Positions 5,284 through 7,416 of a stretch of 64,000 nt of DNA are shown piece after piece. This stretch comes from Planctomycetaceae bacterium (GTDB lineage Bacteria > Planctomycetota > Phycisphaerae > Sedimentisphaerales > UBA12454): the NCBI GenBank assembly GCA_021371795.1, contig JAJFVK010000019.1, positions 62,001-126,000 on the forward strand. The letters are read 5' to 3'. The translations under genes and the position numbers were made by a program. Each line of letters begins with the position of its first letter. The stretch's first letter is position 1. Below the pieces are notes generated by a model. It was not told the origin of the DNA, searched no databases, and worked only from the letters and a program-made list of their open reading frames with translations.

Positions 5284-5402
5284 TTCTATTTTCTACTGTA
5301 TAACATCAAAAGTGTATTGCCAATACGGGTTATTGTCAAGGGTTTAAAACGATAAAACCAGTTTTTGAATTTGTGTTTCACATTTGAATATTATATTATC
5401 TT

Positions 5403-5507
5403 GTTTAGCCGTGGCCGGTACAGCCACGAGTAATTTATGTTTAGCGGTCGTCGGGACGACGACCAGTATTTTCGTGTTTAGCGGTTGCCGGTACGGCAAC
5501 CAGAGTG
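5403..5507 (+). repeat. Three REP-like palindromes with constant head and variable stem (upstream of RAYT)
   Basis: Three copies begin at 5403, 5439 and 5476. Each starts with GTTTAGC followed by a short hairpin: GTGGCCGGTACAGCCAC, GTCGTCGGGACGACGAC and GTTGCCGGTACGGCAAC. The stem sequences differ but each pairs with itself, so the copies covary. Tails such as AGTATTTTCG and AGAGTG are shared with the downstream copies. The third copy ends 5 bases before the transposase start codon. This is the expected layout of a RAYT gene and its own REP sequences. Confidence 0.85.
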
Positions 5508-5511
5508 TTTA

Positions 5512-6054
5512 ATGATTATTGCATATCATGCGATTTTTACGACTTATGGCACATGGCTGCCGAATGACCCGCGAGGTTCATATTCGAAGGAAATTTACAA
5601 TGATGACATTGAAAAACTGGGCGAAATAAAATACGGCAGACAAACACCGCCGCCGAAAAATCAGATTTTGAAATTTTATTCGCAGGCCGTTCCAACATTA
5701 GACAGAGATGCGTATTTGATTAACGATTATACAAGACCTGTGATTGCAGGCGCTTTCTCAAAAGTTGTTAAACGATTGAATATTGAGGTTCCCGCCTGTT
5801 CGATAATGAATGACCATGTGCATATACTAATTTTACGTTCAAGTTATAGTATTGAGTATCTTGTAAATCAATTGAAAGGTTCCGCCACCAAAGAGTTGAA
5901 TTTGAACGATAGTCCCTGGACTCGCGGATTTTGGAGAGTATTTATAGATAGTGAAGAGATATTAAAAGTTGCAATAAAATATGTGAACAATAATCCTGCC
6001 AAGTCCGGCCTTTCTCCTCAAATCTGGAGTTTCATCAAACCATTATCAATTTGA
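5512..6054 (+). CDS. REP-associated tyrosine transposase (RAYT, Y1/IS200-like HUH enzyme)
   Basis: 180 residues from the ATG just after the third palindrome; a start 27 bases earlier would lie inside the repeat and is less likely. The Y1 transposase fold is marked by the HUH motif NDHVHIL (His102, His104) and the probable nucleophile Tyr157 in KYVNNNP. The N-terminus YHAIFTTYGTWLPNDPRGS is typical of the subgroup annotated as transposase but lacking IS ends. RAYTs are thought to nick and join REP DNA in trans, seeding palindromes around the genome. Here at least nine GTTTAG-headed palindromes surround the gene and a tenth lies in dxr, so it has probably been active in this genome. Confidence 0.88.
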   Translation: MIIAYHAIFTTYGTWLPNDPRGSYSKEIYNDDIEKLGEIKYGRQTPPPKNQILKFYSQAVPTLDRDAYLINDYTRPVIAGAFSKVVKRLNIEVPACSIMNDHVHILILRSSYSIEYLVNQLKGSATKELNLNDSPWTRGFWRVFIDSEEILKVAIKYVNNNPAKSGLSPQIWSFIKPLSI

Positions 6055-6078
6055 TTTTTGTTTAGTTCCCGCATCCTC

Positions 6079-6363
6079 GTTTAGCGGTCGCCGGAACGGC
6101 GACCCGTAAATGTTTAGCCGCCTCCGGTACGGAGGCGAGTATTTTCGTGTTTAGCCGTGGCCGGAACGGCCACGAGTGTTTTCATGTTTAGTGGTCGTTG
6201 GCATTCTAATCCTCGCAGGGTACGGCCACGAGTGTTTCGTGTTTAGCCGCCTCCGAAATTTTAATCCTCGATTCTTTAGGATTTTTCTGCTTCAAAGGGA
6301 AAAATCAGAGAGGACGGAGGCGAGTATTTCCATGTTTAGCCGTCGCCGGCACGGCGATGTGTC
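6079..6363 (+). repeat. Six REP-like palindromes, two of them disturbed (downstream of RAYT)
   Basis: Copies start at 6079, 6112, 6149, 6186, 6241 and 6334, all with the GTTTAG head on the plus strand. Clean stems are GTCGCCGGAACGGCGAC, GCCTCCGGTACGGAGGC, GTGGCCGGAACGGCCAC and GTCGCCGGCACGGCGAT. The 6186 copy has a mosaic loop (GGCATTCTAATCCTCGCAGGG). The 6241 copy has a loop expanded by roughly 55 bases while the outer CCTCCG/CGGAGG arms remain intact. The insert is itself a hairpin (GATTTTTC/GGAAAAATC) and resembles a sequence near 9555. Confidence 0.85.
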
Positions 6364-6391
6364 CGGATGTATCTTATTCTCGTGTCATTCC

Positions 6392-6496
6392 AGACCTGTC
6401 CGGTCGAAGCGCAGCGTAGATCCCTGCGGGAAAAATCTAAATCATTTAAAATTTTAAATCGAAAATGTACCTGACACCGTTAATTTCCCATTAAAT
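6392..6496. repeat. Left member of a diverged direct repeat flanking the PEP-CTERM gene
   Basis: The order of short blocks here (AGACCTGTCCGGTCGAAG, TCCCTGCGGGAAAAAT, TTTAAAATTTTAAATC, GTACCTGACACC, TTTCCCATTAAAT) recurs in diverged form just after the gene, in the same orientation. The two copies enclose one secreted-protein gene and nothing else. No coding potential is visible. Confidence 0.6.
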
Positions 6497-6603
6497 ACGT
6501 AAGCTTCACATTTTTTTTAATTATTTGTTGAATATGCCGGTGAAGATTTTATAATACAGTAAGTTGTGCATAGAAAATGGTTGGGACTTTTTGGGAGAAT
6601 AAC

Positions 6604-7275
6604 ATGAAGTTAGGTTACACATTAATTTGTATTGTATTCAATTCATTGGTTTTTGGTGCATCTTTTTATGATATTGATTTTTCAGAAAGTACTCGGCCAT
6701 ATTCGGTTGTATTTGGTTCGCCGAGAATTCAAAATAGTTTTGGCCATATTTCAAATAACTGTCTTGTCTTCAATCCTAAAAGCAGCACATATGAGCAAAT
6801 TGAGCTTAAATTAGGCAAAGGACAGAAAACTTATCAATTGTCTTTTGATATCGAAACAAAAAAACTCACTAATTCCAAGTATGCATTTACAGTTTTATTT
6901 GATACGCCTACTGTACAAACATTTTCCCTTCATGGAATGCTGAATGATATATACATGTTTAATCCTTATGCCGGCGGATCAAAACGCACATTTTTCACCT
7001 TTTCAGATAATTCTTTGATGCATATCGATGTAGATATTAATTTGATGTCATCACGATGGTCTATTGCCGTCAATCAAAATGTGATTGGCAGCAGCGGATT
7101 TCATTCTGATACCGGTGATATCAGGTCTATACGTTTTGCTCTTTCGCCTTGGTCAGGCACAGCAGGTCTTGATAATAGTATTTATGTCGGAATTGATAAT
7201 ATTCTGGTTACGCCAGAGCCTGCAACACTTATTCTTATGTGCGCAGGAGCTTTCATTCTAAGAAAGAAACATTAA
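6604..7275 (+). CDS. PEP-CTERM sorting domain protein
   Basis: 223 residues from the ATG preceded by GGGAGAATAAC; an in-frame ATG 27 bases upstream has no such site. A signal peptide (MKLGYTLICIVFNSLVFGA) leads into a beta-rich secreted domain with no clear family. The C-terminus has the exosortase recognition pattern: PEPATL, a hydrophobic helix (ILMCAGAFIL) and the basic end RKKH. Such proteins are cleaved and probably attached by an exosortase; no exosortase gene is present in the window. The gene is bounded by diverged direct repeats and lies next to the RAYT array, so it may sit in rearranged DNA. Confidence 0.8.
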   Translation: MKLGYTLICIVFNSLVFGASFYDIDFSESTRPYSVVFGSPRIQNSFGHISNNCLVFNPKSSTYEQIELKLGKGQKTYQLSFDIETKKLTNSKYAFTVLFDTPTVQTFSLHGMLNDIYMFNPYAGGSKRTFFTFSDNSLMHIDVDINLMSSRWSIAVNQNVIGSSGFHSDTGDIRSIRFALSPWSGTAGLDNSIYVGIDNILVTPEPATLILMCAGAFILRKKH

Positions 7276-7301
7276 TTCTGAAAAATTCAATTTGGTACGT
7301 C

Positions 7302-7416
7302 CGACCTGTTCGATTGAAGTGTAACGAAAATCCCTGTGGGTTACAATCCCTGCGGGAAAAATACACACCGTTTAAAATTTGAAATCTGTACCGGACACCT
7401 TCATTTCCCTCTAAAT
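7302..7416. repeat. Right member of the diverged direct repeat
   Basis: Blocks CGACCTGTTCGATTGAAG, ATCCCTGCGGGAAAAATA, GTTTAAAATTTGAAATC, GTACCGGACACC and TTTCCCTCTAAAT follow the same order as the copy at 6392, with an extra partial duplication of the TCCCTGYGGG block. It abuts the stop codon of the convergent DUF3800-like gene. Confidence 0.55.

Follow-up and report, generated by a model that had tools for sequence, protein, structure and literature searches.

A RAYT gene and the hairpins surrounding it, its likely substrates, most plausibly form a REPtron with an atypical head (GTTTAGC), in which the stem would mainly have to pair. The system was found in a 64,000-nucleotide stretch of planctomycete DNA (hereafter the window), and its hairpin family is not confined to the array in this window but also occurs in related Planctomycetota. 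The enzyme would bind single-stranded DNA, namely the folded GTTTAGC strand, in which it would read the head and a CG-GNA-CG cap, with a weak base preference in mid-stem. Compensatory substitution, with G.T wobbles on the head strand as intermediate steps, would underlie most stem changes; in addition, hairpins would be exchanged between copies as modules, which would account for neighbours sharing a spacer but not a stem, or the reverse. With 24 perfect stems and numerous wobbled or mismatched variants, such a system amounts to a natural in-genome collection of paired stems next to a single enzyme, allowing direct questions on which hairpin bases the RAYT reads, on whether stems drift by wobble, module exchange or template switching, and on how long hairpins stay paired after RAYT loss.

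The hairpin array and its RAYT gene

Nine hairpins in a single orientation occupy positions 5403-6359 of the window, three before and six after the RAYT gene, with eight exact GTTTAGC heads and one GTTTAGT:

5403-5428, + strand: hairpin 1, head GTTTAGC, CGTGGCCG-GTA-CAGCCACG, C-A mismatch at pair 7
5439-5464, + strand: hairpin 2, head GTTTAGC, GGTCGTCG-GGA-CGACGACC
5476-5501, + strand: hairpin 3, head GTTTAGC, GGTTGCCG-GTA-CGGCAACC
5512-6054, + strand: RAYT gene, 180 aa, Y1 HuH transposase (HVH at residues 102-104; Y157, N161, P162)
6079-6104, + strand: hairpin 4, head GTTTAGC, GGTCGCCG-GAA-CGGCGACC
6112-6137, + strand: hairpin 5, head GTTTAGC, CGCCTCCG-GTA-CGGAGGCG
6149-6174, + strand: hairpin 6, head GTTTAGC, CGTGGCCG-GAA-CGGCCACG
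6186-6230, + strand: hairpin 7, degenerate, head GTTTAGT, arms paired, short loop insert with TTCTAATCCTCG
6241-6322, + strand: hairpin 8, head GTTTAGC, arms CGCCTCCG (6248-6255) and CGGAGGCG (6315-6322) perfectly paired around a 59-nt loop
6256-6314, + strand: palindromic insert in the loop of hairpin 8, TTTTAATCCTCG...AGGATTTTT...AAAAATCAGAGAGGA, which forms a separate repeat family
6334-6359, + strand: hairpin 9, head GTTTAGC, CGTCGCCG-GCA-CGGCGATG, G.T at pair 2, the most frequent stem type in the genome

The seven clean copies follow one geometry (7-nt head, 8-bp stem, 3-nt loop), while those at 6186 and 6241 have loops made long by their inserts. In the clean copies, 98.2% of stem cells are paired and two-sided changes affect five of the eight pairs; their covariation score of 0.56, against 0.19 for arm shuffles, was reached by none of 500 shuffles, and the signal is lost when the partner is slid by one base. 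The preliminary description, which had reported at least nine copies with stems differing in matched pairs, is confirmed on this point. It had also considered both head and tail as constant: the head is indeed fixed, but the constant tail (spacer) is confined to the array, only a weak T-rich bias being seen genome-wide. Besides the common head, an invariant CG-GNA-CG cap is found in six of the seven clean copies (one mismatch in the seventh), and the mid-stems differ yet pair. What goes beyond chance in the window is the clustering of GTTTAGC and its hairpins, not the word count (10 found, 8.7 expected). Folded as single strands, eight of the nine copies gave z-scores of -2.2 to -4.9; the fold of the copy at 6186 was not significant, but it was computed on a shortened stretch.

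The array is neighboured by gyrA and an aldo-keto reductase-like gene on one side and by an unassigned gene on the other. Positions 6380-6500 and 7290-7410 look by eye like copies of one intergenic repeat (GACCTGTCCGG..., ATCCCTGCGGGAAAAAT..., AAATCG...ACCTGACACC or ACCGGACACC). An open frame at 6577-7275 has a signal-like start and an end, TPEPATLILMCAGAFILRKKH, that resembles by eye a PEP-CTERM sorting signal; a Pfam search with this frame gave no match.

The window gene is a RAYT-type enzyme. Its product matches PF01797 (Y1_Tnp, 2.2e-9) and the NCBIfam equivalog REP_Tyr_transpos (NF047646) with 51.9 bits (E 7.1e-14), under the cut-off of 80. The top Foldseek PDB match of its AlphaFold model (mean pLDDT 79.8) was 4er8 (E 3.2e-6, TM 0.49), the E. 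coli RAYT-REP hairpin complex. The HuH and Y---NP residues (H102, H104, Y157, N161 and P162) are invariant in 15 aligned relatives of 38-87% identity. Among the relatives that carry a name, nearly all are Planctomycetota MAGs, two of them labelled Sedimentisphaerales, and one label, Nealsonbacteria, is probably a binning error. A single RAYT was found in the genome of origin at E<=1e-10, i.e. a low-copy gene flanked by repeats and not several near-identical transposase copies moving as a unit, as in IS200/IS605. In 15 other records, whose RAYTs go down to 37-38% identity, GTTTAGC hairpins likewise lie near the gene. A plasmid search with the protein gave no match. An integron attC site, suggested by the GTT-rich head, was dropped as a candidate given the absence of integrase and cassettes and the presence of the RAYT.

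Pairing and anatomy of the hairpins across genomes

A covariance model built from the seven clean array copies retrieved 39 dispersed copies in the genome of origin, and copies in 21 of 59 related genomes and in 34 of 89 in another family of the same order. Family members with matches hold at most 37 copies each, except G008 (40 copies). As the covariance model favours paired stems, pairing was evaluated with a pattern restricted to head and cap, thus blind to pairs 1-6; this cap-anchored pattern replaced a first one with fixed spacing, which returned chance matches only. Among 180 copies from 12 genomes, 1052 of the 1080 cells at pairs 1-6 were paired (97.4%), against 85.9% when arms were shuffled within genomes (largest value 88.0%), so that the covariation proposed from the array also holds for GTTTAGC hairpins collected beyond it. 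For the genome of origin, whose copies come from loci gathered by pattern search and covariance model and form a less strictly blind subset than the rest, the corresponding values were 97.2% and 75.1% (largest 81.7%).

Outer and middle pairs of the stem vary with pairing kept, both within one genome and across genera. Twenty different 5' arms were counted in 30 unbiased copies of the genome of origin (arm-sharing probability of two copies 0.05), which does not agree with a single conserved stem genome-wide and the array as an exception. Other genomes are less diverse and in part approach that situation, with one arm in 13 of 19 copies in G009, two arms in 29 of 33 in G048 and one arm in 13 of 22 in G008.

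Stems had been suggested to be free to drift or to be rewritten in pairs. Their variation is indeed paired, but they are not free: pairs 7 and 8 hardly vary, nor does the GNA form of the loop, and transitions make up almost all changes at pairs 2, 3 and 6. In the 180-copy set, in which changes at these last three pairs are mostly transitions, pair 1 is C-G, A-T or G-C, four pair types occur at pair 4, and pair 5 is G-C in 168 of 180 copies, with some T-A; mid-stem bases are thus not random and still reflect some base reading or mutational bias. In this set the search pattern itself imposes pairs 7 and 8 and the GNA loop of the head strand, the middle base of the loop being free (C, T, A or G). 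Both pairs are also mostly kept in the copies found by the covariance model, and the loop is GNA or GNG in most copies found without the GNA pattern.

Six copies of a further hairpin class, found by pattern search at loci L018, L061, L163, L234, L239 and L249, combine the GTTTAGC head with a CACT or CACC loop and a GGGTTC tail; they have five different stems, all paired.

The palindromic element TTTTAATCCTCG...AGGATTTTT...AAAAATCAGAGAGGA and shorter forms of it occupy the same place in the loop of about 11 copies with different stems in G000 and G001 (window 6256-6314 and 6200-6222; L236, L238, L242, L244, L247, L234, L237, L239, L241), and the element also stands alone (L245, L246, L248). It may be a second repeat targeting hairpin loops. 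Other palindromes, CGTCATCCCGCC...GGGCGGGAT and ATTCCCGC..GCGGGAATGACA, CGTC/dRS3-like by eye, adjoin some GTTTAGC hairpins (L014, L058, L096), and GTCAT lies within 3 nt of the stem in 17 of 138 GNA copies.

Genomes G001, G002, G005, G008 and G048 carry up to 40 hairpin copies, yet no RAYT was found in them at E<=1e-10; most genomes are draft MAGs, and this absence may reflect incompleteness or loss. As many copy-bearing genomes have no detectable RAYT, pairing may persist there for another reason. At L026, a RAYT with an in-frame stop at residue 44, which may therefore be a pseudogene, lies beside a 41-bp tandem array of hairpins.

Stem changes and their alternative explanations

The data fit compensatory drift under selection for a folded head strand. 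Non-Watson-Crick pairs of the 180-copy set, read on the head strand, comprise 43 G.T, 9 A.C and 19 other mismatches. When each distinct arm pair is counted once, there are 24 G.T for 8 A.C (p=0.007), or 17 for 5 if pair 2 is left out (p=0.017). An A.C would be a wobble if read on the opposite strand; it is therefore the fold of the head strand that is maintained, unless the bias results from strand-biased deamination, and the G.T excess could also stem from C deamination of an exposed head strand. Single-pair steps (24 transitions and 14 transversions) join 23 of the 24 perfect stems in one network.

Among the few orthologous sites found, the dispersed ones show more single wobble steps than two-sided changes, and every single-sided difference is a G.T step (G.T to G-C, or C-G to T.G): G.T/G-C at pair 2 for the dxr site and for a G002/G009 site, and C-G/T.G at pair 7 for a G108/G109 site. 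Hairpins flanking the RAYT differ between G006 and G012 by a two-sided C-G/T-A change at pair 4, at both ends, and an A.C mismatch at pair 5 was found for the RAYT-flanking pair of G034 and G037. RAYT flanks of distant genera were left uncounted, their arrays being unmatched copy to copy.

The dxr gene (TIGR00243) of G000 (L050, 1283-2455) and G001 (L096) contains an in-frame GTTTAGC hairpin, with the head strand antisense and the reading frame intact. Between the two copies, pair 4 has changed on both sides (C-G/T-A), which corresponds to S/L and R/Q in the protein; two amino acids being altered, the protein alone does not account for the paired change. The dxr hairpin of G006 (L076) is near the same place but in another reading frame, for which reason it may be an independent insertion; it was set aside as an ortholog. 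Rickettsia palindromic elements are palindromic repeats that lie in frame inside coding genes, as the dxr copy does, but their tag differs, and dxr is the one such case examined here. Two of them, RPE-4 and RPE-6, have been linked to CGTC repeats (PMC3733652).

Within the array, units 5439 and 6112 have an identical head and 11-nt spacer and differ at four of eight stem pairs, and units 5403 and 6149 have their 5' arm in common and differ at five of 11 spacer bases. Stems and spacers of the array thus have discordant histories, which makes an exchange of some stems as modules probable. Taken together, wobble pairs, orthologous sites and array favour compensatory drift with some module exchange. 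A further-reaching version is rather doubtful, namely that the stems accepted by a single RAYT form an open-ended set and that hairpins are rewritten in place as pairs or swapped whole, even in a coding gene at an amino-acid cost, while a second palindrome enters the loops. If it were true, the stem would serve as an almost neutral spacer separating the head from the cap, the two signals that are read.

The hairpin-templated repair invoked in the preliminary description is not required, because ordinary compensatory drift accounts for the single-arm G.T intermediates, which are common. In its replicative form, template switching at a quasi-palindrome would transfer a mutation of one arm to the other immediately, with no need for selection or RAYT activity. 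This is a published source of paired stem changes (PMC8794818), and it would agree with paired changes persisting where no RAYT was found, with the transversion steps (14 of 38 network edges), which have no wobble intermediate, and with arms still perfectly paired around a 59-nt loop. It is nevertheless unlikely, though least so for the transversion steps, as such a correction should remove G.T and A.C alike, whereas G.T prevails on the head strand; wobble steps prevail over two-sided changes at the dispersed sites; and loop inversions, its tell-tale, were not seen, the loop being GNA and not TNC.

We also consider it improbable that the stem types are old hairpin subfamilies, separately inherited and brought together by transfer with little change in place. 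Several stems do recur across genera (CGTCGCCG in 7 genomes; CGCCTCCG in 2, and also beside the RAYT of GWC2_45_44), but two-sided differences separate species at the same flanks and the single-step network of stems is nearly complete. Maintenance of the hairpins for an RNA function (as terminators or mRNA stabilisers), with an incidental RAYT, is very unlikely: pairing at old sites and G.U tolerance would fit RNA, but positions 5300-6600 gave no Rfam match, copies lie on either strand, a conserved head lies outside the stem, copies cluster at RAYT genes in many genomes, and in dxr, where the head strand is antisense, a G.T of that DNA strand would appear as A.C in the mRNA.

Relation to described repeat systems

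The system is REPtron-like with an unreported head and not a new principle, since a constant head with a variable palindrome, stem sub-families and stem tolerance are already published. A fixed head followed by a variable palindromic part is in the REP definition (PMC3686654), and repeat sub-families with complementary stem changes have been described (PMC3733652). Swapped stems are still cleaved in vitro and mismatched ones are not, the Stenotrophomonas and Marinomonas RAYTs tolerating many stem changes, failing on mismatches and needing particular loop bases (PMC8266576). In view of these three studies, the contrast initially drawn with known REPs, considered to have largely fixed stems, was overstated. 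What is new is GTTTAGC as a head, the variety of stems around a single RAYT and the presence of a second palindrome in the loops; in open-access text, no report of GTTTAGC with a palindrome and a transposase was found. REPtron-like systems are thus extended to a new head in an under-studied phylum.

Strictly defined REPs begin with 5' GT(A/G)G, in place of which GTTTAGC is found in eight of the nine array copies and in the relatives; the downstream palindrome of variable composition and the dispersed multicopy occurrence (39 copies) are both present. By this definition the system is not a REP, but its sequence features suggest that it works like one. As in the REPtron of E. coli and Stenotrophomonas (where the RAYT is TnpA-REP), a single HuH-Y gene with Y---NP is flanked by dispersed hairpins of the same kind, each with a fixed unpaired 5' head, a short GC-rich stem and a small loop, whose first G is fixed as in the Stenotrophomonas REP (PMC8266576). 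It differs from the REPtron by the GTTTAGC head, by one unpaired base between AG and stem, and by the large number of stem types that accompany a single RAYT within a genome.

The GTAG- and CGTC-tagged families (Di Nocera 2013, PMC3733652) are likewise tagged stem-loops with complementary-stem sub-families and noted G.T pairs, and GTAG repeats were reported in the PVC superphylum (PMC3733652). The seven-letter head matches neither tag, however, and GTTTAG was not found in the text of that study. TnpA-Y1 class 3 and subclass 2.6 (Quentin 2018, PMC6006769) also comprise Y1 proteins whose flanking hairpins are atypical. Mainly found in Planctomycetes, class 3 has the foot CnGA and the motif Y----Q (PMC6006769), unlike the present system with Y---NP (class 2) and the GTTTAGC head. 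At L033 (1392 and 2052), hairpins carry a head at either end (GTTTAGC...GCTAAAC), an arrangement that recalls the 'double foot' REPs described in PMC6006769.
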